Counted from the stretch's first letter, positions 2,234 through 15,365 are shown. The stretch is DNA of 16,561 bases from Gemmatimonadota bacterium (GCA_002712305.1 PATE01000120.1:1-16561); one strand, 5' to 3'. Numbers and translations: made by a program. Notes: a model not told the origin generated them from the sequence alone.

Positions 2234-3478
2234 TCAAGCGGTGTCTCGCTCGAGGACCATGCCTTCCTGTTCGACACGTTCGAACATGGCTCTGTATTCG
2301 GGCGAACCATCGTCATCCCAGTATTCAGTTTCGATCGGCGCATCGTAGCTCAGGGAGATCTCGCGACGACAATCGGGCCGAACCATGAAAATCGACTCCT
2401 GCGTGTCGGCGAGATTGTACATCCAGGTGCCGTCGCTAAGACGAGATTTGATGATCCACTTGGGCTGCTCAGGCAACTTGAGCGCCGAGAGTCGATCCAA
2501 CGCCTTGCGATTGAGCGTCACCCCGAGCCCAGGCACTTCGGACACGCGCAGATGGCCGCTCTTCGGCTGCGGGTATTCGTCGACCACATCCTCACTCCAC
2601 GTCTCACAGTCACTGAAGAAGTGGAAGTTCCCCGTCGGGGCCGCCGCCATCATATGGCAGGTCATGGCACGCGTGATATTGCCGCCCATGTTCTGCAGCA
2701 TGAAGGGAATGTCTCCGGCGGCGAAGAGTCCCGCCTTGCGCATGGCGTCGCCAATGCGCGCATGGCCGAGCATATAGATGTCGGCCGCGCCCATGAGTAC
2801 TTCGTAGGTCGCGCCCAACGGACAGTGATGCAAAACGACGGGTAGAGGCGAGCGCTTGCGCAGTTCGATGTAACCGGGAAGATCTTGTGCGGGCAGGGCG
2901 TCCTCGAAGCAGCCGGCGATCGGGTACTGTGCCAGCTTGTCGCACAGTTCGAACATATGATCCGTCGTGCCGTGCATGGTGAAGTCGTAGTGAACCTTGA
3001 AGCCGGGTGGCGCCACCTTCTGCATCGCTTCGGTCTGGTCAATCACATTCTCGAAGGGTGACAGGTGGAACTTGAGCCACGTGTATCCCTGGGCGGAATA
3101 CTGCCGCACGGCTTCGGCCATCCGCTCGGGGTGCGTCGACACGGTCCAACTCCCCACTGGAACCCACGAACGATACTTCTGGCCGAACAGCTTGTAGACA
3201 GGAACTCCCGCCGCCTTGCCCATCAGGTCGTACATCGCCGTTCCGAGGCCCAGGGACACCTCGTCTCCCACGTGATCGAAGGGACTGGTGCCGATGTAAT
3301 GGTCGATCGTCTCCTGCGGTTCGGTAGATCCTGACTCGCCCAGTCCCACGAGTCCATCGTCGGTATGAACCACGTAGATCGTGCGTGACGTGGGACCGTA
3401 GTAATGATTGAGTTGATACGAGATCCAGTCGACATACGGCGAGGCGATGCGATGGACCTCGATGTCGGTGACTTTCAT
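2234..3478 (-). CDS. Enolase-superfamily protein (mandelate racemase/muconate lactonizing type), divergent active site
   Basis: The open frame reaches back to 3721, but I start at ATG 3476-3478 (MKVTDIEVHRIASPY), preceded by GGAGAG at 3485-3490; the upstream part is low-quality sequence. That gives 414 residues, the usual family size. The N-terminal capping domain (about 1-110) contains GLVGLGESG; a TIM barrel follows (about 110-330) with GSWTVS, YTWLKFHLS, KVHYDF and GCFEDALP. By family alignment from memory, K136 matches the first Lys of the KxK pair and H138 the second; D165 and E192 match the first two Mg ligands. The third ligand (Glu in mandelate racemase) appears to be H218, and the His-Asp dyad positions appear to be Q262 and G238. 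A sugar-acid dehydratase or epimerase role is therefore uncertain. It leads an operon with the sulfatase, divergent from the SGNH operon. Confidence 0.85.
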   Translation of the reverse strand: MKVTDIEVHRIASPYVDWISYQLNHYYGPTSRTIYVVHTDDGLVGLGESGSTEPQETIDHYIGTSPFDHVGDEVSLGLGTAMYDLMGKAAGVPVYKLFGQKYRSWVPVGSWTVSTHPERMAEAVRQYSAQGYTWLKFHLSPFENVIDQTEAMQKVAPPGFKVHYDFTMHGTTDHMFELCDKLAQYPIAGCFEDALPAQDLPGYIELRKRSPLPVVLHHCPLGATYEVLMGAADIYMLGHARIGDAMRKAGLFAAGDIPFMLQNMGGNITRAMTCHMMAAAPTGNFHFFSDCETWSEDVVDEYPQPKSGHLRVSEVPGLGVTLNRKALDRLSALKLPEQPKWIIKSRLSDGTWMYNLADTQESIFMVRPDCRREISLSYDAPIETEYWDDDGSPEYRAMFERVEQEGMVLERDTA

Positions 3479-3479
3479 G

Positions 3480-3532
3480 GTGCTCTCTCCAGATGAGCCT
3501 GCACAGCGGGCATGCCGGTCCAAGGAGAGCAC
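3480..3532 (-). promoter_or_regulatory. Possible leader hairpin covering the enolase-gene ribosome-binding site
   Basis: GTGCTCTC at 3480-3487 and GAGAGCAC at 3525-3532 are perfect 8-bp inverted repeats separated by 37 bases. In the minus-strand transcript the 3' arm lies immediately before the AUG (3478) and includes the GGAGAG ribosome-binding site. Folding would hide the start site. The loop contains a further GGCATGCC palindrome. Function is inferred from geometry only, and the GA-rich arm can pair in two registers. Confidence 0.3.
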
Positions 3533-3662: not shown

Positions 3663-4394
3663 GTGAAACAAGACTGGCATAACAAGGAATTCGAGTGCCT
3701 GGTCACTCTCGGAGAAAGCACGACGGCAGGAGGCTGGTCCAGTTCACGCGAACGCTGTTGGGCGTCTCGATTGTCGGTTTTGATCAGCGACGTGCAGTCT
3801 CAGCCTGTGCGTTTGATCAACTCGGGGATCGGCGCCAATGTCATCTCGACTCGCAGTCCCTCCTACGAGCACAGTGGCAAACCGGCGGGCCTGGAGCGAC
3901 TCGAGAAACACGTGTTCGAACACAGACCTGATCTGCTCATCGTCAGCTACGGTCTGAACGATGCTCGCGGCGGAACACCCCTGGCGCAGTTTGCCGAAGA
4001 TCTTTCGATCCTGGTCGGACGAGTCCGTGACAACTGTGCCCCCCTGATCGTGTTGCCAGGGCCCTATTTTATGACCGATTTCAGCGTCGGAGGGCAAGTG
4101 TGGTCCCATGCGGACCTGCGGCTGTTCGAGCAGTTCAACAGACAGATCGCTTCGGTGGCCGATACCTTGGATTGTCTGTTCGTCGACCTGCTCGCCGGGT
4201 ATGATCGAACGCCCTGGCTCGTGCATCACGATGGTGTGCACGCCAACGACCTTGGCCACCTCGTCGTCGCCCATCGGATTTTCGAGAAACTCCTGCAGAA
4301 CTGCTCTGGTCTAGCACGAAACACGCAGGCACTGGAAGAATCGATTCCGCCCTGGCGTGACGAATCCACCTTGCAGGCTGACTACGGCCACTGA
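3663..4394 (+). CDS. SGNH/GDSL-family hydrolase
   Basis: A 243-residue SGNH-fold esterase or lipase, a family that removes acyl or acetyl groups from lipids and glycans. All four conserved blocks are visible: block I G17-E18-S19 (GES in place of GDS, nucleophile S19), block II G55 in INSGIGANV, block III N99 in YGLND, and block V D190-G-V-H193 completing the catalytic triad. There is no signal peptide, so it is probably cytoplasmic. The start is GTG at 3663 with GAGG at 3655-3658; no better start exists before the GES motif. It is the first gene of a four-gene plus-strand operon and lies 24 bases before the TIM-barrel gene. A carbohydrate esterase role fits the neighbouring sulfatase and glycosidase-like genes, but the substrate is unknown. 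Confidence 0.88.
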   Translation: MKQDWHNKEFECLVTLGESTTAGGWSSSRERCWASRLSVLISDVQSQPVRLINSGIGANVISTRSPSYEHSGKPAGLERLEKHVFEHRPDLLIVSYGLNDARGGTPLAQFAEDLSILVGRVRDNCAPLIVLPGPYFMTDFSVGGQVWSHADLRLFEQFNRQIASVADTLDCLFVDLLAGYDRTPWLVHHDGVHANDLGHLVVAHRIFEKLLQNCSGLARNTQALEESIPPWRDESTLQADYGH

Positions 4395-4418
4395 ACGCGG
4401 TCACCGATCGAGGGAAAC

Positions 4419-5618
4419 ATGCTCAAGCGCGGGTCATCGGGTGGGATCTACATCCATCCCTGGGACATCACGGACGAGGGTATCGACGACTGTTATGACT
4501 TTCTGGATCAGTCGTGTGGGCTCAACGAACTGTTCGTCGCCGCCGCATATCATGCGAGTACGTTCGTTCTACCACACAATCCGAAACGGTTGGTTCGCTG
4601 GGATGACGGGGGGATCTACTTTACACCGAAACATGCCCGCTGGGGAGACACCTCCATCCAACCAGCCCTCGGCTCGGGTGTCGACTCCGACTCCTATCTG
4701 ACCCAGATCGTCGACAAGGCACGCGACCGGGATTGGGGCGTGTTGTTCTTTGTCGTCTTCCATTACTCCGTCCCCTTACCGACCCGGTACCCTCACACGT
4801 GCTGCATCGACGCGCTGGGTGAACCACATCGCACCTACCTTTGCCCATCCAATCCAGATGTGCGCAGCTACGACCTGGCCCTTGTAGAGGAACTGCTGGA
4901 CACCTACTCAGGAGATGGCATCCGTCATGAGTCCCTCGGATTCGGTGGCTGGAATCAGATCGCCCTGTGTAACAAGGTGGAGGTTTTGCCTACTCCCCGT
5001 GACCAGTTCCTTCTCAGCCTCTGTTTCTGTGAGCACTGCGTCTCGAGGGCCCACGAAGAAGACGTCGACGCCTTGTCCCTGCGTGGTTCGATCCGCGACC
5101 ATCTCTATCGGAGTCTGCCACAGAATCCCACCGAGTGGGATGATTCAGCCCCAGATGAGCAGTGGGCTCGCAACGTCTTTGGCGGACAGCTTTGGAGATA
5201 CCTAGATGTGCGCTGCCATACTGTGAGCAGTCTCTTCGGCGAGGTGCAGAATCTGTGCAATTCGCATGACGCGGCGTTCATGCCCTTTGGCACTCGCAAT
5301 GACCGGGATGTCATGGCCTGCAATGACTACTCGCTCATGTACCCGCATCTGAAACGGGTCAGTCTGGGCGCAACAGGCAACGATCCGGTCGCCCAGCGAA
5401 CCAGCCTGCAGGCGGCCATCGAAGAGGTTCCACACCACGCCGAGCCGGAGATCATGCACAACCAGCGAAGCTTTGACAGTTCCCCCAAACTGACAGAGGC
5501 CGTAATGCTTGCCCGAGACGTGGGCATCCGCCATCACTCTTTCCACTACTACGGCATGAGCCGTCGGCACGAGTTGGAATGGATCGGTGATTCTCGTGAC
5601 GCCTGGGCAAAGGGGTAG
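4419..5618 (+). CDS. Glycosidase-like TIM-barrel protein with CxC-x2-C motif
   Basis: A 399-residue protein I can place only loosely. It opens with a beta strand and a TIM-barrel-like start (GGIYIHPWDITDEGIDD), and alternating hydrophobic strands and helices (NELFVAAAYHAS, WGVLFFVVFHYSVP, DGIRHESLGFGGW) resemble putative glycoside hydrolases of the GHL10 or alpha-amylase-like type. E171, after the DGI strand, and nearby Asp residues are candidate acids. A C202-F-C204-E-H-C207 cluster sits in the segment after that strand; similar FCxC-type motifs recur in uncharacterised glycosidase-like proteins and could bind a metal. There is no signal peptide. The start ATG has GAGG at 4410-4413. It is translationally close to its neighbours, 24 bases after the SGNH gene and 2 bases before the propeller gene. 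Activity on a glycan is an inference. Confidence 0.65.
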   Translation: MLKRGSSGGIYIHPWDITDEGIDDCYDFLDQSCGLNELFVAAAYHASTFVLPHNPKRLVRWDDGGIYFTPKHARWGDTSIQPALGSGVDSDSYLTQIVDKARDRDWGVLFFVVFHYSVPLPTRYPHTCCIDALGEPHRTYLCPSNPDVRSYDLALVEELLDTYSGDGIRHESLGFGGWNQIALCNKVEVLPTPRDQFLLSLCFCEHCVSRAHEEDVDALSLRGSIRDHLYRSLPQNPTEWDDSAPDEQWARNVFGGQLWRYLDVRCHTVSSLFGEVQNLCNSHDAAFMPFGTRNDRDVMACNDYSLMYPHLKRVSLGATGNDPVAQRTSLQAAIEEVPHHAEPEIMHNQRSFDSSPKLTEAVMLARDVGIRHHSFHYYGMSRRHELEWIGDSRDAWAKG

Positions 5619-5620
5619 CG

Positions 5621-6658
5621 ATGATACCTCCACACACGGTTTCCAACGACCCGGGCACGATCTGGGCCAAAGACACGAAGCCTGCCGTCGATACCCCACC
5701 CGATGGCGAGACCGATCCGGCCCCCGAAAGCGCCTGGCCTGCGTCGGCCGCGCGTACGGGGATCTATGGCGTCGTCACACCGCACGTGGTGCCGGCTGCC
5801 TCGGATGGTTGGCGGATGTACTACACCCAGATTCTTCCACGGCCTGGGTATCCGGCCGGTGCCAATGATTACGACAATGCCACGACGCGCATTCTGAGTG
5901 CCACATCAGCCGATGGCGTCACGTGGTCTCCCGAAGCGGGCGTCAGACTCACGGCCTCCCAGGGGGGCGCCGGTGACTATCGGGTGGTCTCCCCCGAAGT
6001 CGTCCCGTTGACCGACGGCAGCGAACGACTGCGCATGTACTTCGAGTGCAATCCGGGTGCCCAGTCCGTGGCCAGCTCCATCCGCAGTGCCCTGTCCGAC
6101 GATGGCGGCACGACGTGGGCCGTCGAACCAGGAGAGCGGTTTTCGGCCGGTGGCAGCTACAACTCGCCGCGGATCATCTTTCTCGACGATGGCCGCTGGC
6201 GTCTGTATTGCAGCGACCGCGGCGTGGGAATCGTCAGCGCCATCTCCGAGGATGGGGGCGTTACATTCGAACGCGAGGCCGGTGAACGGATCGTGCCGAC
6301 GACCTCCTACGAGGCCATGACGACCTTCGCCCCCGAAGTGCTGCGCATCACCGGTGGCGGTTACCGCATGTATTTCGCGGGATACAGCGCCATGGATTGC
6401 GCCCACGTGCTCAGCGCCACATCAGAGGACGGCCTCCACTGGGACAAAGAGCCCGAACCGGTCATCGCCCCAGGAGGGCCGTTGGATCGTTCGAAATGCT
6501 CGGAGATGTGTGTCATGCCCATCGAGACCAACGATGGACCTACCTTTCGGATGTTCTACGAAGCCTGCGATGGCACGGCCCCCGATGAGCGAGGGGTCTG
6601 GCGGATTATCTCTGCCACCGCTGGGCCTGCCACTTTGAGTGAGGAAGAGCGATCGTGA
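5621..6658 (+). CDS. Five-bladed beta-propeller protein, GH43/GH32/sialidase-like
   Basis: 345 residues made of about five repeats of one blade pattern: an R-M-Y-Y/F strand, then S-A-x-S-x-D-G-x-x-W, then E-x-G-x-R. Copies of the second element lie near residues 93-102, 156-166, 206-216 and 265-274, with a last partial one at 331; the aromatic strands are at 65-69, 138-141, 194-197, 249-252 and 310-313. The S-x-D-G-x-x-W element resembles the Asp-box of sialidases and strands of GH43, GH32 and GH130 five-bladed enzymes. I cannot assign the three catalytic acids with confidence, so it may be an enzyme or only a glycan-binding propeller. There is no signal peptide. The start ATG follows AAAGGGG with the previous stop only 2 bases away, and the last 4 bases overlap the next gene (GTGA), so it is coupled on both sides. 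Confidence 0.75.
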   Translation: MIPPHTVSNDPGTIWAKDTKPAVDTPPDGETDPAPESAWPASAARTGIYGVVTPHVVPAASDGWRMYYTQILPRPGYPAGANDYDNATTRILSATSADGVTWSPEAGVRLTASQGGAGDYRVVSPEVVPLTDGSERLRMYFECNPGAQSVASSIRSALSDDGGTTWAVEPGERFSAGGSYNSPRIIFLDDGRWRLYCSDRGVGIVSAISEDGGVTFEREAGERIVPTTSYEAMTTFAPEVLRITGGGYRMYFAGYSAMDCAHVLSATSEDGLHWDKEPEPVIAPGGPLDRSKCSEMCVMPIETNDGPTFRMFYEACDGTAPDERGVWRIISATAGPATLSEEERS

Positions 6659-7875
6659 GCCAATCGCCCGTCGCCGTCGGCCCACCCCGGAACCCGCTCC
6701 TTCTGCCCCAGATCGGCGACCCCCTGCTCGCACAGGTTCTGGAGCGGCCTTCCAGGGGGTTGGCTGAAGCGACTCGACCGAACTTCGTGCAGAATCCTCG
6801 ATCTCCTGTTCAGTGGACGGGGCCCGATTTCGACAAGATGGAGGACAGCCGTGAGCCACTGCTGGAATGGCCCTCGGTGCTGAGCCAGTTCAACGCCGAG
6901 GCCTTCCTGCGCGATGGAGCTTGTGTCCTTGAACGGGTCATGACACCGGCAGCCATCGAAGCCTGGTCTGAGGCCCTCTTACAAGGCCAGCAGTGCAATG
7001 ACCGACTGATTTCGGGTGATTGGACACAGATCGACTGGGCCGGCCTCGGGCGTACGCCCCCAAACACTGCGGTGACGACGGCGGACAGAGAAAAAGCCCT
7101 CGGTGGCAGTCAGACCATGCCGCAGAGCGACGACGAGGCGGGCGTCCAAACGTTGCGTCAGCACAGCGTTTTCGCCGAGTATTTCTCGGCTGGACACGTG
7201 GGTTTCCTCATGAATGTGATGACCCATCCGCAGATGCTCGACCTGCAGCGCCTGTGCCTGAAGGCCGAAACCGTGTACTTCGATCACAACCAGTTGCTCA
7301 CACGAGCACCGGGATACGCAGGCGGTGCCTGGCACAGTCACAAGATTGGCGCAGGCAACGACGACGGGGTCACCGTCGCCGATCTGGATGCCTATCGCCG
7401 ACAGCCGAATATCAACCTGACCCTCTGTTATCCTCAGGGATTCAGCGCTGATGCAGATGGCGGCCTCAAGTTGGTCAGCGGCAGTCACCTGTTCCGAGAT
7501 CCGGCCGGCTGTCGCGCTCCTGACGACGATGCTCTGCGGGCGGGCTGGCTCAAGGATCGCCGGCACCCCGTCACCGGCAGAGCGCTCGAAATCGAACATC
7601 TTGCCCTGCCTCCGGGCTCGATCGTCTGCTGCCTGTCTCACGCGGCCCACGCCGTCGCCCCAAAGGCACAGGATCGATCTACGAGGTGGTGCTCCCTGTT
7701 CTGTTATCGCAAGGCTGACGAGGAGAACGGGATCGTCCAGCCGCCGCACGCGGTGCCGCCCGTGTGGTCACTGAAAGCGCAGCGCGGCGAGTTGCCGGCA
7801 ACATTGACCCAGCTCGTGCAACACAGCTTCGACCGAGAACTCACAGGTGGACGCGTCGGCACGTTTGATCAGTAG
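6655..7875 (+). CDS. PhyH-like (phytanoyl-CoA dioxygenase family) protein
   Basis: A 406-residue protein starting with GTG in the overlap GTGA with the propeller gene. After a variable N-terminus of about 75 residues it reads FNAEAFLRDGACVLERVM (79-96), the standard PhyH opening, followed by a double-stranded beta-helix core with DHNQLLTR, WHSHKI (226-231), LTLCYP, GGLKLVSGSH (269-278) and SIVCCLSHAAHAVAP. Family members are Fe(II)/2-oxoglutarate oxygenases with an H-x-D...H iron triad and a distal Arg for 2-oxoglutarate. Here the first pair appears to be H227-S-H229, so His replaces the Asp ligand; the distal pair may be H332 and R344. Iron binding may be altered or lost. It is the last gene of the operon, 20 bases from the convergent M81 gene. 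The substrate is unknown; small-molecule hydroxylation is the family role. Confidence 0.78.
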   Translation: MSQSPVAVGPPRNPLLLPQIGDPLLAQVLERPSRGLAEATRPNFVQNPRSPVQWTGPDFDKMEDSREPLLEWPSVLSQFNAEAFLRDGACVLERVMTPAAIEAWSEALLQGQQCNDRLISGDWTQIDWAGLGRTPPNTAVTTADREKALGGSQTMPQSDDEAGVQTLRQHSVFAEYFSAGHVGFLMNVMTHPQMLDLQRLCLKAETVYFDHNQLLTRAPGYAGGAWHSHKIGAGNDDGVTVADLDAYRRQPNINLTLCYPQGFSADADGGLKLVSGSHLFRDPAGCRAPDDDALRAGWLKDRRHPVTGRALEIEHLALPPGSIVCCLSHAAHAVAPKAQDRSTRWCSLFCYRKADEENGIVQPPHAVPPVWSLKAQRGELPATLTQLVQHSFDRELTGGRVGTFDQ

Positions 7876-7895: not shown

Positions 7896-9368
7896 CTACC
7901 AGACGTCCTCAAAGGGATAGACCTTCCGCCGCAGATTCTTGAAGCGTCCCGCCACCGCCTCCGCCGAATGCACATTCGGTTCGGACACCACGTGGATGGC
8001 CCCCGACCACGCTTCGAATCCCGCACGAAAGTGTGCAGCTGACTTCACGCCGATATAGCGCATGTTCTGGGGGTCCAGCTCCATCGACCGCGCGAAGGCC
8101 GTGTCATAGGGCTGCTCGCGATGACTCACGACCAAGACGTGCACACCCTTCTGTACGAGATGAGCAGAGGGCCCCATGTTGCCCGCCAGACCTCGATTCC
8201 GAGGGCCGTCGTAGAGAAAGTGGCCGTCTCCGAGGGCGACGACGGTGGCCGTCATCTCCACCGGGTGGCCCTGGATCGGCGTGGACTTGCCACCCACTGT
8301 CAGTGTCAGTTCGGCCCCTACACCCGCCTGCTGGCACAGCGTGACCGCCTCGGGGTCGACCATGTAAAGGATGCAGGCATCCTGCAGATCCGCGTTGATG
8401 AAGGTCTGCAGCATCCCTGTGCTGTCGCCGGGCGCACCACCGCCGGTGTTGTCATTGCGGTCGGCGAAAATGACCGGATACGAGCCGGCTGTATCGGCCA
8501 GCGTCAATGCGTCTCGCGTAGACGGCATGACCAGCTGCCAGTCCGCACGCCGTTCCCACAACCACTGCCCGAGTTCATCAGCGTACGACTGGGCCAGCGC
8601 CTCGTCGTCGTCGGTGGCGATATAGACGGAAGCCCCCATGTCAGGGGTGTCGGCGAGAGGGAAACATGTGGCAATCGATCCGCAGATCACTCTGGGCCGC
8701 GCTTCGATCTCGTGCAGCAGCTCGATGGCTGATCGCATAGGCGGGTGGGCCGTCACCTGATTCATCCCCCAGGCAAGGGGGAGTTGGCACAGTGCCAGGG
8801 TTGGTCGCAACCCTTCACGGAGAATCCGATGCATCACGTCGACGCATTCTTTCCCGCGCTCCTGCTGATCGATTTCGGGGAAGGTCTCGTGGCCGATCAT
8901 GACATCGGCCATCTCCACCATCTGCCTCGAAACGTTGGAGTGGATGTCGAATTGGGCGACGATGGGCACATCCGGGCCCACCAGATCACGAACTGCCGCC
9001 AGCACATGTCCTTCCCCGTCGTCGATTCCTTCAACGACCATCGCGCCGTGCAGATCCATGAGGACACCGTCAATGATGCCGGCCGATCGCATGGCACCAA
9101 GCATCTCGGACAGGATCTCATCAAAGATCTCACGAGGCGTGGGTGCGCTGGGGTGCGCACTGGCGAAGATCGTCGGTATCAGCTCGAAGTCGTGGTCCGC
9201 GCAACCGTCGACGAATCCTCCGAGGGCCGTATTCGTGTCCGCGAACTTGTCCAACACCTGCTGACCACGCAGAAAACCAAACCGTCGGTTTCGGTAGCTC
9301 TCCCACGTGGTGGGGACCGTCGTGAAGGTGCTCGTCTCGTGATGAATCGTTCCGGTGACGATCCTCAT
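7896..9368 (-). CDS. M81-family metallopeptidase (microcystinase C/MlrC-like)
   Basis: The open frame extends to 9473, but MRIVTGTIHHETSTF at 9368 is preceded by AAGGGGAG and matches the family N-terminus, giving 490 residues, the usual size. The DUF1485 domain (about 1-290) carries E11 (HHETSTF), H107 (DLHGAM), D141 and H143 (FDIHSN), which match the zinc ligands reported for MlrC. The last family ligand, His in PHxD, appears to be E165 in ETFPEIDQQERG. The C-terminal MlrC domain begins near 300 with DNTGGGAPGD (306-315). MlrC cleaves linearised microcystin; most relatives have unknown substrates and occur in catabolic clusters. There is no signal peptide, so it is cytoplasmic. It is the last gene of the isomerase-epimerase operon, with a 106-base gap that may hold its own promoter. 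Hydrolysis of a small amide or peptide-like compound is inferred. Confidence 0.9.
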   Translation of the reverse strand: MRIVTGTIHHETSTFTTVPTTWESYRNRRFGFLRGQQVLDKFADTNTALGGFVDGCADHDFELIPTIFASAHPSAPTPREIFDEILSEMLGAMRSAGIIDGVLMDLHGAMVVEGIDDGEGHVLAAVRDLVGPDVPIVAQFDIHSNVSRQMVEMADVMIGHETFPEIDQQERGKECVDVMHRILREGLRPTLALCQLPLAWGMNQVTAHPPMRSAIELLHEIEARPRVICGSIATCFPLADTPDMGASVYIATDDDEALAQSYADELGQWLWERRADWQLVMPSTRDALTLADTAGSYPVIFADRNDNTGGGAPGDSTGMLQTFINADLQDACILYMVDPEAVTLCQQAGVGAELTLTVGGKSTPIQGHPVEMTATVVALGDGHFLYDGPRNRGLAGNMGPSAHLVQKGVHVLVVSHREQPYDTAFARSMELDPQNMRYIGVKSAAHFRAGFEAWSGAIHVVSEPNVHSAEAVAGRFKNLRRKVYPFEDVW

Positions 9369-9474
9369 GTGCTCCCCTTTGGCGTATCTGTAGTCATTTC
9401 CAGGACTGCCTCGACTTGTTTTGGGATGATCGGGATCCGTTTTCCTCCGATAGATTGGAACCCGCGCCTCCAAA

Positions 9475-10236
9475 TCACTTGTACTGCGCCAGATCTCCCT
9501 TGAAGGTCAGTCCGAGAAGCTCGACCGTCCGCTGAACATTGCACGTATCTCGTGCCTCCGGTGTTCCTACCACGTGCAGGACCTCATGCCCCATCGTTTT
9601 CGACTCTGCTGCGAGCCGGCAAGCCTCGGCCAGATCGTGCCGGCAGACGAGACCATTGCGGTAGCTCCCCGCCAGAGATTCACGATTGCGACCGATCTTC
9701 GCTCGGCTGTCGACGATGTAGTCAGGGCGCAAAACCACCGTCTTCATGCCATACGCATCGTGAAACTGCCGACACATCTCCTCTTGCAGACGTTTCTGAA
9801 TGCCGTATTGTGAACCCTCAGCGCTGCGCGTCTCGCCCGAGAAAAACTCGCCCTTGGGGTGAGCGACGCTGCAGGACCCCATATGCACGACCCGCTCGAT
9901 TTCACGCCGGTGCGCCGATTCCAGCACGTTCCACAAGCCCTTGAGATTCACCAGAAACGACTGGGTGTTGTCTTCCAATCGAAGTTCCGAGCGATAGGGA
10001 AAGTGGACGGCCAGATGAATGATGGCATCCACGTCCTCCGTTGCCGCGTGGACGAAGTCGAACTCGACGATGTCTCCGTAGTGCACATCCTCTCCGGGCC
10101 ACGTGCCATCAATGTCATTCCACTGATCCCAGCTTTCCGGCGAGAAGACGACGGCGCGGACGTCATGTTTGTCCTGCAGATTGGCCAGTACTGCACGCCC
10201 GGTCCAGCCTTCGGCACCAAAGACAGCGATTTTCAT
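9475..10236 (-). CDS. NAD(P)-dependent epimerase/dehydratase (extended SDR)
   Basis: A 253-residue extended short-chain dehydrogenase/reductase. The N-terminal Rossmann motif is MKIAVFGAEGWTGRAV (G7, G10, G13), with the NAD-side strand LAVHFPYRS near 75-83. The active site shows S121 in VVHMGSCS and Y144-x-x-x-K148. VVLRPDYIVD (167-176) is the usual strand before the substrate loop. At 253 residues it is shorter than UDP-sugar epimerases (about 310), so it may act on a small sugar or sugar acid, as uronate dehydrogenases of similar length do. The ATG overlaps the isomerase stop as ATGA (10233-10236), implying translational coupling. With the isomerase upstream and the M81 peptidase downstream it likely serves one catabolic route. 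The substrate is not readable. Confidence 0.88.
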   Translation of the reverse strand: MKIAVFGAEGWTGRAVLANLQDKHDVRAVVFSPESWDQWNDIDGTWPGEDVHYGDIVEFDFVHAATEDVDAIIHLAVHFPYRSELRLEDNTQSFLVNLKGLWNVLESAHRREIERVVHMGSCSVAHPKGEFFSGETRSAEGSQYGIQKRLQEEMCRQFHDAYGMKTVVLRPDYIVDSRAKIGRNRESLAGSYRNGLVCRHDLAEACRLAAESKTMGHEVLHVVGTPEARDTCNVQRTVELLGLTFKGDLAQYK

Positions 10237-11048
10237 GAGGATTCCCCTGTGAACACATCACGCAGATGAGCCGCCGCTTTGGCGATCGAGACCGGGCGAT
10301 CTTCCTCATCATCCCCTTCGTAGACGATGGAGATGCACCCGTTGTAGTCCACCGCCCTCAACAGACGACCGATTCGTGCATAGTCGAGGATCTCTTCTCG
10401 ACCACTGGCGATCTGATAAATCTTGCAGCGCACGTAGCTGGCAAAGGGCAGGGTCTGCTCGATGTAGGCATAGATGTCCACATTGGGATCCATGTCACCG
10501 AAGGCGCCGTGGGCTCCACGCCATTGCCCGGTGTCGACGACGAGGGAGAAATTGGCGTGATCCACCTCCTCGCGGATGCGTAACACGTCAGGTCCCGTCG
10601 CCGCCAGGTTGCGATTGTTGTGATTCTGCAGCGCCACCACCACCCCTCGCTCTGCCCCGTAGTCGCAGACCTCGCGCAGACAACGTGCCAGGGCTCCAAA
10701 GAGCGGCTCACGATCTTCGTCGTCCGTCGCCGACCAGCCAAAGACCCGGATCAGGGGTGCACCGAGGACCAGCGCCATATCGATCACAACCTTGGCTTCG
10801 GCCACCTTCGACCGCTGAAACTCCTCGTCTCCGGCGAAACCACCCCCCATGCCCAGATACCCCACCGGCAACCCGAGGTCGAGACACTGGCGTTTCATAC
10901 CGAGCAGGTAGTCCGTCTCCTGTGAGGCGAAGGCCCGCTGATGGAAGTCGACACAGTCGAGTCGCAACTCGTGACAGGTCTGGATAAAGTCCTCGACGCT
11001 GATCTCGGCTCCTTTGAAGCTGAGATAGTTACAGCCAATCTTGATCAT
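10233..11048 (-). CDS. Sugar phosphate isomerase/epimerase (xylose isomerase-like TIM barrel)
   Basis: 271 residues with the AP-endonuclease-2/xylose-isomerase-like fold: IKIGCNYLSF at the start, FIQTCHELRLDCVDFH, GYLGMGGGF, a helix then LGAPLIRVFGW, VVVALQNHNN, FSLVVDTGQW and ISIVYEG. Relatives interconvert or dehydrate free or phosphorylated sugars using a divalent metal held by Glu, Asp, His and Glu. Here the corresponding positions look like Q141, D172, K209 (in RCKIY) and E244, so the metal site appears altered; the Gln version is, as I recall, common in a subgroup from polymer degraders. The ribosome-binding site is a weak GAGAGAG before the ATG at 11046-11048. It is the first gene of a three-gene operon, transcribed from the repeat-bearing intergenic region at 11049-11218. 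Confidence 0.85.
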   Translation of the reverse strand: MIKIGCNYLSFKGAEISVEDFIQTCHELRLDCVDFHQRAFASQETDYLLGMKRQCLDLGLPVGYLGMGGGFAGDEEFQRSKVAEAKVVIDMALVLGAPLIRVFGWSATDDEDREPLFGALARCLREVCDYGAERGVVVALQNHNNRNLAATGPDVLRIREEVDHANFSLVVDTGQWRGAHGAFGDMDPNVDIYAYIEQTLPFASYVRCKIYQIASGREEILDYARIGRLLRAVDYNGCISIVYEGDDEEDRPVSIAKAAAHLRDVFTGESS

Positions 11049-11218: not shown

Positions 11219-12832
11219 ATGAGCCGTGACAACGAAGTCATCTTCTACACCGATGGTCGACACTCCAACGTCTACATCTACGAACCTCCCATGGACAAAC
11301 GCCTCTATACGGCGCCCATCGACGAACTCGTAGACCTTGGGATCGACACGATCAGTTATGCCGTGGGTGACTGCCGCGTTCTGCTCTACGACACGAAAGT
11401 GGGCGAACGCTGGGGCCACAATCTGCGGCGGACGAATCACATCATCTGGTATCGTGCCGCCCTCAACGTGACGCAATTCGTTGAGGACGGCAACGACCCA
11501 CTGCAGGTCGTTTGCGATCGAGCTCACGAACTCGGGTTCACCTTCATCCCCAGTCTTCTGCTCGGTATGCAGCATCAGGAACCGGCCGAGATCAATGACT
11601 GTCGGTGCTCTGACTTCTGTTTCGAGCACCCCGAGTACCAGATCGGACCCGAACCCGACTTTCGACAGGCCCGTTGGGACGATCCGGCGAGATTCTCCTA
11701 CGCCATACCAGAGGTTCGACAGAACCGCCTCGACGTCATCGGAGAGCTCGTCTCCTCCTATGACACCGACGGCATCGAGCTCAACCTCATTGACTACGCA
11801 CCCTTCCTTGCCCGTCGCGAGATTCCTGAACACACGCAGACCTTCACCGATTTCGTTGGCGACGTAAGACGACTGTGTGACACCGCGGCAAAGCAGCAGA
11901 ATCGACCAAAGCGACTGATCGTACGCGCGGCCGCGAGTCTGGCAGGCTGCAAGGCCATCGGCATCGATCTGGAGGGCATGATCGGAGATGAGATGGTGGA
12001 TACGGTAATCGCCATGACTCCGCACTCCACGGGGCAGATGGAGCAGCACCCGGCAAGTGTGGCCGAACTGGTTCAGGCAACCAACGGCAAGAGCGTGAAG
12101 ATCGTGCGCGGCATCTCCACGGGGGTTAACCACGATGCCTTCCGGATGGCACCACGCGAAATGCTCGTCGCCCAGGTCGCCAATGGCTACGATGCCGGCG
12201 CCCAGGGCGTGTTCTTCTCCACCTACTACCCGAATGGATATCCCTACGCAGATGCGGATCTGGCCAATCTGCGCAACATGGGCCACCCGGAGCTACTCAC
12301 TCGCAAGGACAAGCACTACGCCGTGCGACAGGGGCCCAATGGTCCGGACGATACGCCCGGCGGCTACGACCAGCCCCATCCGCTACCCGTAGAACTCGAG
12401 GTCGGCAAGCCGGGTCCGTCGCAGACGTTGTATGTGAGTGATGACGTGGCTCCTGTGAAGGATGCAGGAGAGTTGTCCCGATGCGAGTTGCGTGTGCGCC
12501 TCGTATCTCTCATCCACGACGACACCTTCGACCTGTGGTTCAATGGCGTGCAGATCCCACGTGATCATCAGAACTGGGCCGACTGGACCTATTCGGTACG
12601 CCCCGTGCCGGGCAATCGCATGAACAGCCACTACTGGATTACCGTCGACCTGCTGCGTCTGGGGCCGCTGCCTCTGCAGGGCGACAACTCAGTCCGTGTC
12701 GATCTGACACACCACGATCCTCGGTGTGATCCGCCCGTGGTGTTGCACGACGTAGAGCTGATCATTCAGTATCGAGATCGTCGCCACGCGCCCCGCCGTG
12801 ACGAGTGGGCCTTCGATCCACGACAGGTGTGA
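11219..12832 (+). CDS. Large glycosidase-like TIM-barrel protein with C-terminal beta domain
   Basis: A 537-residue protein. Residues 1-370 look like a TIM barrel: LVDLGIDTISYAVGDCRVL, the strand FTFIPSLLLGMQ (107-118), YDTDGIELNLIDYAP (181-195; D184 and E187 are candidate catalytic acids), RLIVRAAAS (232-240), KIVRGISTGV, and GVFFSTYYPNG near the end of the barrel. This layout resembles putative family-10-like glycosyl hydrolases. A Cys cluster, C128-R-C130-S-D-F-C134, follows the third strand. From about 390 to 515 there is a beta-rich module (ELRVRLVSLIHDDTFDLWFN, SVRVDLTHHD) likely to be a carbohydrate-binding or accessory sandwich. There is no signal peptide. The ATG has AGGAAG at 11208-11213. 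It is 6 bases upstream of the 250-residue gene. Enzymatic activity is inferred. Confidence 0.68.
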   Translation: MSRDNEVIFYTDGRHSNVYIYEPPMDKRLYTAPIDELVDLGIDTISYAVGDCRVLLYDTKVGERWGHNLRRTNHIIWYRAALNVTQFVEDGNDPLQVVCDRAHELGFTFIPSLLLGMQHQEPAEINDCRCSDFCFEHPEYQIGPEPDFRQARWDDPARFSYAIPEVRQNRLDVIGELVSSYDTDGIELNLIDYAPFLARREIPEHTQTFTDFVGDVRRLCDTAAKQQNRPKRLIVRAAASLAGCKAIGIDLEGMIGDEMVDTVIAMTPHSTGQMEQHPASVAELVQATNGKSVKIVRGISTGVNHDAFRMAPREMLVAQVANGYDAGAQGVFFSTYYPNGYPYADADLANLRNMGHPELLTRKDKHYAVRQGPNGPDDTPGGYDQPHPLPVELEVGKPGPSQTLYVSDDVAPVKDAGELSRCELRVRLVSLIHDDTFDLWFNGVQIPRDHQNWADWTYSVRPVPGNRMNSHYWITVDLLRLGPLPLQGDNSVRVDLTHHDPRCDPPVVLHDVELIIQYRDRRHAPRRDEWAFDPRQV

Positions 12833-12838
12833 GGAATC

Positions 12839-13591
12839 ATGAAGGTCCTCGATTTCAACCGATCCCACACGATCGTCACGTCAGCGCAGGAGGGCGTAGA
12901 GATGAACACTTGTCGCAGTCAGGTTCTTGCCTCTTGCACACTGACTGACGACTCGCAACGACCCGTGACGTACTACCTGTGCAAGGAGTGTATCGGCGAG
13001 CACATGTACAAGGAGATCGGCATCGCCCAGGTGCCCACCTCTGAGGTCTGCACCATTTTCGGTGAACACGAGTCGTCGCTGCGAAAGAAGTTCGCCGACC
13101 ATAAAGACGACGTGATCCAGTCAGGCACCAACGATGTGAGTCGCAAGGGGTTCGCCGGCGGCGTCGCCTACTGGACAAATCTGAGGTTCTTGCTGAAGTC
13201 CGCCGAGGCTCGCCCTCTGAGGACGACAGATGACATCATCACCGCCACGCTCGGTGGCGAGAGCATGGTCGGCGTGACGACACTGGCCGACTCGAAGAAT
13301 GGCGGAGAGACCCGGCTCGAATACCCAATCCCCTACGTGAATGTGCACCGACCCGAGAACCGCTTTCAGGTGGACGTGGGGCCGATTCTGTATCCTGATG
13401 TAGCCTCGAACGAGCCGGCTCTCGTCGATCGCCTGCAATTCGCCTACGTGATGTACAACCAGCTGGAGGTCGCCGAATTCGCCCTGCGTGTGCCGACGGT
13501 CATCGGCGGCGATCTGTCCGTCGAGACACAGCACTACTCGCAGGTGGTGAAGGTGCCCGCTCGCAGCGAGCTCTTCGCCCTGGTCGAGTGA
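12839..13591 (+). CDS. Unrecognised 250-residue protein in operon with the TIM-barrel gene
   Basis: I do not recognise this protein. It begins 6 bases after the preceding stop, with GAGGA overlapping that stop as its ribosome-binding site, so it is very probably co-translated. It has a C48-K-E-C51 pair (YLCKECIGEH) plus Cys at 25, 33 and 71 in the N-terminal third, a mixed alpha/beta middle with no transmembrane segment or signal peptide, and strongly beta-like stretches in the second half (IPYVNVHRPENRFQVDVGP, RLQFAYVMYNQLEVAEFALR). The repeated VEV-type strands toward the C-terminus suggest a beta-sandwich. The tight coupling implies a role linked to the 537-residue TIM-barrel protein, perhaps as a partner subunit. 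Codon usage matches the neighbours, which supports it as a real gene. Confidence 0.75.
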   Translation: MKVLDFNRSHTIVTSAQEGVEMNTCRSQVLASCTLTDDSQRPVTYYLCKECIGEHMYKEIGIAQVPTSEVCTIFGEHESSLRKKFADHKDDVIQSGTNDVSRKGFAGGVAYWTNLRFLLKSAEARPLRTTDDIITATLGGESMVGVTTLADSKNGGETRLEYPIPYVNVHRPENRFQVDVGPILYPDVASNEPALVDRLQFAYVMYNQLEVAEFALRVPTVIGGDLSVETQHYSQVVKVPARSELFALVE

Positions 13592-13782: not shown

Positions 13783-14301
13783 ATGGGTGCCGTTTGGCCG
13801 CGTATGACCGCAACCCTCGCCGGCGAGCCAAAGACGAAGGAGCTTCGTCCCGATCGTGGCTTTTCATACAGACTCCTCGACGAGGAACTGGCGCAACGCT
13901 ATCGTGCCGAGCAACAGCAGAAAAAGATCGGCGGCATCTTTTCGAGCCTGTCGATCTTCCTCGCCTGTTTGGGATTGTTCGGCCTCGCCTCCTTTACAGT
14001 GCAGCAGCGCACCAAGGAGAGCGGCCTACGCCGAGTGCTCGGCGCCTCCACCACCGACATTGTCTCGCTGCTTACCTGGAACATCCTGCGATTGGTACTG
14101 GTCGCCAATGTTGTCGCCTGGCCGATCGCCTACTTCACCATGTATCGGTGGCTGCACAACTTTGCCTACCGCGTCGACGTGGGGGCCTGGACCTTTGTCG
14201 CCAGCAGTGCGCTGGTGCTGGTCGTGGCCGTCACGACCGTAGGTGGCCATGCGATCAGAGCAGCGCGGCGGAATCCGGCGGAGGCCTTGAGATACGAGTA
14301 G
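13783..14301 (+). pseudogene. C-terminal remnant of an FtsX/MacB-type ABC transporter permease
   Basis: 172 codons that match only the last part of the long (about 800-residue) permeases common in Bacteroidetes- and Acidobacteria-like genomes. Visible hallmarks are RPDRGFSYRLLDEEL (22-36), which precedes the last membrane block; a first transmembrane helix at about 50-71 ending in GLFGLASF; QRTKESGLRRVLGAS (75-89), the coupling-helix region; helices at about 98-118 and 134-155; and the terminal RRNPAEALRYE. In intact members this part forms the second half of the permease and works with a LolD/MacB-type ATPase. The N-terminal periplasmic domain and first helices are missing, no ribosome-binding site precedes the ATG, and no ATPase is adjacent. 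I call it a truncated remnant; a transcribed fragment cannot be excluded. The inverted repeat ends 24 bases upstream. Confidence 0.82.
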
Positions 14302-14468: not shown

Positions 14469-15365
14469 GTGCAGAGCCTCTGTTATGATTCGGCAAACTT
14501 CGAGCAGATCCGGGTCCTCGATACGTGGCGGCGGTATGCAGACCGCCTGACGTGGGGTCGAGGACAGTGCCTGGCGATTCTGGATGACGGATGCGACCTG
14601 TCTGCGCCGCAGTGGCAGGTCGAGATGCCCTGGGGCCGGAAAGTCATCGCGACCTATAACAGTATCGATGACAATGCCGACCCCACGCCCGTACCACCAG
14701 GATACCATGGCACGTCGGTGGGTTATCCGTCATCTCTCAATCATGAGGGAGTCCTGGGCATCGCCTACAACAACTTCGTTGCGCAGATACGGGCAATCTC
14801 GATCGTTCACCTATCGGGGCAGGGCGAGGCCGATACCATGGCGGCGGCACTGAATTGGGTGCTTGAACACCACCACGAATACAACATTACCACCGTCAAC
14901 CTGTCCCCCGTGGATGATGAGCGCCACCAAGACCCGCTGCCCACTCTGATCGACGGCCCTCTGCGGGCGCTCAAAGAGCAAGGGATCTGGGTGAGCGCGC
15001 CCTGCGGCAACAACGGCTACACAGACGGAATCTCATGGCCCGCCTGCCAACCAGACTGTTTCAGCATTGGTGCGACCAAACCGGGAGCGCATGCGGCCCA
15101 CCTGGATCGCTTTACCAATACCGACCTGCTGGTTGCCGCCGCAGCGACCTCGTCCTCCAACGCCAATGCCGCCGCCTGTTCGATGATCCTGCGAGAAGCG
15201 ATCGACGTCGGCGCTTATCCCTGGCAGGATCACGGCCCGACCTTGGCAGACGCCATGCTGGCGATCTTCCAACAGACAGGCGTCAGCATCGAAGATCCGC
15301 TTGTGCCAGCCACGTTTCACGAACTGGATCTGCTCGCTGCCGTGGGCCACGTGCTGGGCGGTTGA
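14469..15365 (+). CDS. Subtilisin-like serine peptidase (family S8), no signal peptide
   Basis: 298 residues of a subtilase-type catalytic domain. The Asp block is LAILDDGCDLSAP (D39), the His block GYHGTSVG (H80), the oxyanion block VSAPCGNNGY (N181), and the Ser block SSSNANAAA (S230), where SSSNA stands in place of the usual GTSxA. The four blocks come in the correct order and at reasonable spacing. There is no signal peptide and no I9 propeptide, so secretion by the usual route is unlikely and the protein may act in the cytoplasm or be a shortened derivative. The start is GTG 14469 with GGAG at 14455-14458; the next in-frame Met is downstream of the Asp block. It stands alone between the permease remnant and convergent genes. 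The altered Ser block leaves activity open. Confidence 0.82.
   Translation: MQSLCYDSANFEQIRVLDTWRRYADRLTWGRGQCLAILDDGCDLSAPQWQVEMPWGRKVIATYNSIDDNADPTPVPPGYHGTSVGYPSSLNHEGVLGIAYNNFVAQIRAISIVHLSGQGEADTMAAALNWVLEHHHEYNITTVNLSPVDDERHQDPLPTLIDGPLRALKEQGIWVSAPCGNNGYTDGISWPACQPDCFSIGATKPGAHAAHLDRFTNTDLLVAAAATSSSNANAAACSMILREAIDVGAYPWQDHGPTLADAMLAIFQQTGVSIEDPLVPATFHELDLLAAVGHVLGG

Follow-up and report, generated by a model that had tools for sequence, protein, structure and literature searches.

The ectoine hydroxylase EctD, a PhyH-like Fe(II)/2-oxoglutarate oxygenase, holds its metal through His146, Asp148, and His248 (PMC2871039). The protein encoded at positions 6655-7875 of the stretch of DNA analyzed here (16,561 nucleotides in full, hereafter the window) resembles EctD in its double-stranded beta-helix, its WHS motif, its distal histidine, and the arginine of its last strand (Arg-259 in EctD). 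The two differ in that EctD has Asp148 where the branch of the family represented in the window (the HxH branch) has a histidine, and in that about 70 additional residues at the N-terminus, beyond the aligned range, make the window protein the longer of the two. The 2'-O-methyl nucleoside demethylases of the PHYHD1 type act on methylated ribose and keep the H-X-D...H motif (PMC12709175). Like the HxH branch they are relatives within PF05721, some of them from Poribacteria, but they retain the HxD that the HxH branch does not, and they are the nearest characterized sugar-directed precedent in the PhyH family. The three-histidine metal site predicted for the HxH branch is found on a double-stranded beta-helix in the 3-His cupins cysteine dioxygenase and Dke1, which, unlike what is expected for the HxH branch, are thiol and diketone enzymes from outside the PhyH family and do not depend on 2-oxoglutarate.

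In Poribacteria, an expansion of the PhyH family to very many genes per genome has been described (PMC3909097). This abundance is paralleled by the 152 PhyH-family matches in the genome that contains the window. The passages of that study on the abundance of PhyH genes and their possible functions contain no mention of an HxH branch, and the open-licence literature searched yielded no account of a natural PhyH branch with a 3-His site.

The four-gene array and its genome

The window corresponds to contig C120 of a genome that totals 4.77 Mb and is split into 146 contigs. The named relatives of this genome are Latescibacterota MAGs, part of them filed under Gemmatimonadetes. Four open reading frames lie within positions 3663-7875:

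3663-4394, plus strand: SGNH/GDSL esterase-like hydrolase, 243 aa, GTG start (Pfam Lipase_GDSL_2, E = 1.6e-20)
4419-5618, plus strand: 399-aa protein, probably a GHL10-like TIM barrel (weak hhalign match to a GHL10 profile; paralogue on contig C27)
5621-6658, plus strand: beta-propeller hydrolase-like protein, 345 aa, with Asp-box-like motifs (BNR_2, 1.3e-7)
6655-7875, plus strand: PhyH-fold protein, 406 aa, with HxH for HxD and a predicted 3-His metal site (AlphaFold pLDDT 92.6; conserved motif)

Given that all four have orthologues elsewhere, they are genes. They are separated by gaps of 24 and 2 bases and then overlap by 4 bases, which matches exactly the closely packed, co-directional arrangement described in an earlier note on this DNA and upholds the coupling of the four genes claimed there. 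Tight packing of genes on the same strand is frequent in bacteria and is, on its own, a weak pointer to a common pathway. The apparent cytosolic location given in the same note also holds, as none of the four proteins has an evident signal peptide: in a hydropathy scan, the mean over 12 residues near the N-terminus is at most 1.2, with no strongly hydrophobic stretch. No substrate, product, or transporter was identified within the window.

The three hydrolase-like proteins

The esterase has the motifs GEST at residue 17, GLND at residue 97, and DGVH at residue 190, that is, the catalytic Ser, Asn, and Asp-x-x-His blocks of the SGNH/GDSL family. Residues S19, N99, D190, and H193 are invariant across eight orthologues, the Pfam score lies above the cut-off, and the closest PDB sequences are those of GDSL lipases and acetyl xylan esterases. 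The identity first proposed for this gene is thus borne out by the Lipase_GDSL_2 match and the invariant catalytic residues, and the protein has the sequence of a standard SGNH hydrolase with every catalytic block.

The propeller passes the BNR_2 cut-off marginally (31.7 versus 31.4), in agreement with the fold assigned to it before. When its profile is compared with the PDB, structures of GH117, GH32, GH43, GH130, and GH159 are preferred over sialidases, which points to hydrolases of these types. The likeness to the five-bladed propeller glycoside hydrolases (GH117, GH32, GH43, GH130) is one of profile similarity, through weak and partial matches of which the best reaches 2.3e-6.

The 399-aa protein has no family match in Pfam or NCBIfam. 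Its sole related Pfam neighbour is GHL10 (PF02638), for which it scores 11.5 bits, far under the gathering cut-off of 27.9, so that the TIM barrel assigned to it by the earlier note is plausible. In hhalign, it matches the profile of the GHL10-like protein encoded at 11219-12832 with a probability of 47%, and its paralogue on contig C27 (locus L066) adjoins GHL10 and AP_endonuc_2 genes. Given this weak match and the setting of the paralogue, a GHL10-like TIM barrel is the best guess for this protein. The paralogous cluster on C27 (L066:6171-15764) comprises relatives of the AP_endonuc_2, GHL10, TIM, and sulfatase genes together with a DUF4838 protein.

Fold and predicted metal site of the PhyH-like protein

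The 406-aa protein scores 15.3 bits against the Pfam PhyH profile (PF05721), for which the gathering cut-off is 22. The AlphaFold2 model built with a 39-sequence alignment reaches a pLDDT of 92.6 and a pTM of 0.91 and has the PhyH double-stranded beta-helix fold, with Z scores of approximately 17-18 to FtmOx1, SptF, and H11. The best solved structural matches are FtmOx1, SptF, EctD, and the proline hydroxylase H11, all of which are PhyH-like 2-oxoglutarate oxygenases; a chain of the trypanosomal RNA-editing complex (8fnc) is also among the matches. The H-x-D/E...H triad is absent, given that all 10 orthologues read H-x-H; their alignment has WHSH at the place of the WHxD of PhyH proteins. The residues of the predicted site are encoded as follows:

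7333-7341, plus strand: codons of His227-Ser228-His229, at the canonical HxD position (invariant in 10 orthologues; aligned on WHSD of EctD)
7648-7650, plus strand: codon of His332, predicted distal metal ligand (invariant in 39 homologues, including HxD sisters)
7684-7686, plus strand: codon of Arg344, predicted anchor of the 2-oxoglutarate 5-carboxylate on the last strand (invariant in 39 homologues; matches Arg-259 of EctD)

Searched against the PDB, the profile of the 39-sequence set places WHSH without a gap on the WHSD of EctD, while the profile of a single family (A1) gave no match there. In the 39-sequence alignment, every row has His332 and Arg344, and almost every row has His227 and His229. 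By DSSP, a strand of the model ends at His227, a short strand begins at His332, and the last strand begins at Arg344. By opening gaps, a PhyH profile made from HxD paralogues put a later aspartate, Asp236, at the ligand position. We discarded this candidate, as the other two HxH subfamilies do not conserve Asp236 and the alignments with the sister proteins and with EctD are gapless. From alignment and model, the protein is predicted to hold its metal at a 3-His site. Of the PhyH oxygenase described in the earlier note, the fold stands with confidence, but the iron-binding motif reads HxH instead of HxD, an alteration that had been overlooked.

The retention of Arg344 argues for 2-oxoglutarate as a co-substrate. 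In prolyl 4-hydroxylase, the replacement of Asp by His in D414H abolished activity (PMC2767507), so that a 3-His site cannot be assumed to support 2-oxoglutarate oxygenase chemistry, and the reaction may differ from a standard hydroxylation. The same loss of hydroxylase activity speaks for an alternative that we consider rather unlikely, in which the branch left oxygenase chemistry and uses its 3-His site, with Zn, Mn, Ni, or Fe, for a non-redox step on a sugar, such as the isomerization, lyase, or hydrolysis reactions of several 3-His cupins. Such an enzyme would fit with the replacement of HxD by HxH across the whole clade bar one row, with the varied reactivity and metal use of related cupin-fold 3-His centres (PMC4019311), and with the sugar-catabolic nature of the neighbouring genes. 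It fits poorly with the invariant arginine, which anchors 2-oxoglutarate in EctD-like enzymes and would be needless in an enzyme that does not use this co-substrate.

Members and origin of the HxH branch

The HxH motif is common to 38 sequences from Latescibacterota and Candidatus Poribacteria, the latter also containing orthologues of the PhyH-like protein. The exception within the clade is L134 (genome G020), which reads WRAH, with an arginine in place of the first histidine. In addition to the subfamily of the window protein, there are two further HxH subfamilies, one of approximately 390 aa (WHGH/WHAH) and one of approximately 250 aa (WHSH/WHTH), and the identity between the three is about 30%. 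A shorter member from the genome of the window (L122) scores 31 bits with the Pfam PhyH profile, past the cut-off, which ties the HxH branch to the PhyH family. At the ligand columns, sister proteins of the same phylum carry FHQD, and the two ligand positions align without an intervening gap. In a maximum-likelihood tree of 59 rows, the 38 HxH rows form one clade (support 99/94) beside the FHQD proteins, and this clade is recovered in 100% of 200 bootstrap trees; several distant HxD rows sit on long branches, and the placement of those rows is unsure. These alignments and the tree point to a single origin of the HxH branch, in which the metal-binding aspartate would have turned into a histidine.

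The near invariance of the site also bears on whether the branch is catalytic at all. A pseudoenzyme or binding protein that kept the fold for another role would explain the loss of the carboxylate ligand, and the RNA-editing chain 8fnc among the structural matches suggests that PhyH-like folds occur in non-metabolic settings. We regard this as improbable, given that the three histidines and the arginine are almost invariant over three subfamilies with only about 30% identity, whereas a dead site would be expected to drift. For a single-origin branch of Latescibacterota and Poribacteria that exchanged Asp for His, performs chemistry at a 3-His site, and serves sugar catabolism in the lineage of the window, we see even odds; the chemistry may be either oxidative or non-redox. 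The branch lies within an established fold family, and its function is one that we infer from sequence. With its intact arginine and a close HxD sister clade, it would allow a direct test of the role of the carboxylate, and likewise of how a new metal centre evolves. It also carries a warning for annotation, as PhyH-rich genomes include members whose chemistry cannot be presumed.

At least three HxH PhyH-like genes are present in the genome of the window, one per subfamily (6655-7875 in the window, G000:C6:17903-18949, and G000:C38:15797-16291). At the Poribacteria loci L074-L076, L079, and L080, the 3-His PhyH gene stands tail to tail with a PhyH paralogue of 31-35% identity, and the second PhyH paralogue in L074 and L075 is likewise HxH (WHAH).

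Conservation of the four genes

Each of the four proteins was searched against 60 relatives. In G001, the only other genome and species of the genus, the esterase, propeller, and oxygenase genes are adjacent (87%, 81%, and 79% identity, respectively), and the TIM gene is absent from both the cluster and the genome. The contig search found 23 oxygenase loci. The esterase and propeller genes are nearby only in G001, the remaining 22 loci have none of the other three genes next to the oxygenase, and the TIM gene accompanies the oxygenase orthologue at 0 of 23. Orthologues of the 399-aa protein, with 60-63% identity, occur among the 60 relatives only in four genomes of genus g4, which have no orthologue of the esterase, propeller, or PhyH-like gene. 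On the single contig of G018, relatives of the four genes lie at approximately 1.70, 4.23, 5.25, and 6.03 Mb, and on the single chromosome of the Poribacteria genome G064 relatives lie at approximately 1.57, 0.43, and 3.68 Mb. The earlier note had suggested that the four genes may form an undescribed pathway and had named rare co-occurrence elsewhere as the finding that would speak against it. This is what the neighbourhood comparison gave for the set of four, whose conservation as a pathway is not supported: the quartet is together in no other genome examined, three of the four are together only in G001, and their relatives are dispersed in G018 and G064.

The gap of 42 bases between the esterase and propeller genes of G001 resembles the opening bases of the TIM gene joined to its final ones. 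The chance of such a likeness is 0.003-0.006 with a local-alignment score and 0.013-0.025 with a stricter anchored global score. This constitutes moderate evidence that the TIM gene predates the split of the two species and was then deleted in G001. We also considered its insertion in the genome of the window; the possible scar, for which the statistics are modest, makes this less likely than a loss in G001.

A dedicated, undescribed four-enzyme pathway, reduced by loss of the TIM barrel in the sister species and by further losses elsewhere, would account for the tight spacing of the genes and for the scar, which suggests that the four-gene order predates the split. We find it very improbable, as outside the window genome and G001 not even one pair of the four genes stands side by side, the TIM orthologues are confined to a genus where the other three were not found, and the relatives lie far apart in G018 and G064. 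It is also improbable, though less so, that the four genes are mere neighbours with no common function, brought together by chance in a genome filled with paralogues, as its PhyH-family matches illustrate. The shuffled neighbourhoods are compatible with this; nonetheless, the esterase-propeller-PhyH order is kept in G001 at 79-87% identity, along with five flanking genes.

The wider, probably sugar-degrading cluster

The four genes are flanked by the following:

2234-3484, minus strand: enolase-superfamily protein, sugar-acid dehydratase-like, divergent neighbour (MR_MLE_C, 3.4e-23; orthologue of 89% identity beside the G001 cluster)
7896-9473, minus strand: MlrC/M81-family protein (DUF1485, 3.2e-92; not found in the G001 locus, L049)
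9475-10236, minus strand: SDR/epimerase-family dehydrogenase (Epimerase, 5.3e-23; 89% in L049)
10233-11048, minus strand: xylose-isomerase-like AP_endonuc_2 barrel, a recurrent neighbour of the PhyH-like gene (8.2e-20)
11219-12832, plus strand: GHL10-like hydrolase (GHL10, 6.4e-8; 88% in G001)

The cluster of G001 also keeps the AP_endonuc_2 gene at 91% and the 250-aa gene at 12839 at 71%. It thus holds the enolase, esterase, propeller, PhyH, SDR, AP_endonuc_2, and GHL10 genes and the gene at 12839 together, at 71-91% identity, without the TIM and MlrC genes. Across the relatives, a PhyH orthologue and an AP_endonuc_2 homologue are found no more than 10 kb apart in 6 genomes against 0.19 expected, far above chance, GHL10 pairs with the enolase in 10 against 0.48 expected, and GHL10 pairs with AP_endonuc_2 in 9 against 0.88 expected. 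The window and its sister G001 are among these counts, as are three g7 genomes of common ancestry, which means that the observations are not independent.

At the neighbouring loci, where genes were called with a simple codon score, the company of the PhyH orthologue varies. In G012, it is found with genes for an HpcH aldolase, an enolase-superfamily protein, a GHL10 protein, another BNR propeller, and an AP_endonuc_2 protein. In G007, it overlaps the gene of an MFS transporter by 4 bases, with a zinc alcohol dehydrogenase nearby and the enolase orthologue 4.6 kb away. In genus g7, it is the middle one of three overlapping PhyH genes (L054:8216-11066), of which the downstream one is HxD. Genes have been gained, lost, and reshuffled between related species, and the four genes are therefore no fixed unit. 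The better-conserved unit is the wider cytosolic cluster of enolase-superfamily dehydratase, SDR, xylose-isomerase-like barrel, and GHL10-like hydrolase, and the neighbourhood is a shuffling pool of sugar-catabolic genes rather than a fixed four-gene pathway.

The breakdown of a decorated sugar, as suggested in the earlier note, is plausible from this wider neighbourhood (dehydratase, SDR, AP_endonuc_2, GHL10, and sulfatase, with the MFS transporter of G007) but not from the quartet alone. We favour, with a probability of roughly 0.5, the reading in which the four genes make up the co-directional stretch of a larger, modular, cytosolic cluster for decorated sugars that includes a functional 3-His PhyH metal enzyme. 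The cluster of this Latescibacterota genome would most likely degrade a decorated sugar or glycoside, for example an acylated or otherwise modified one. The esterase and the two hydrolase-like proteins (propeller and barrel) would strip the decorations and split the glycoside in the cytosol, and the SDR, the xylose-isomerase-like barrel, and the enolase-superfamily enzyme would process the freed sugar oxidatively. The PhyH-like protein, with its 3-His site and the 2-oxoglutarate-type arginine retained, would act on the sugar or on its modification, most likely by oxidation; its metal, co-substrate, reaction, and substrate are those that we infer.

Further genes were observed in the window. A sulfatase with the CSPAR formylglycine motif is encoded at 793-2211 on the minus strand; it has no evident signal peptide and is thus possibly cytosolic. 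Next to it, at 368-694 on the minus strand, a 108-aa open reading frame with a Lys/Ala-rich, histone-H1-like N-terminus is a candidate gene. Towards the other end of the window, positions 13783-14301 encode the C-terminus of an FtsX-like permease (172 aa), which looks truncated, and positions 14469-15365 encode a subtilase-like protein with a weak Peptidase_S8 match.
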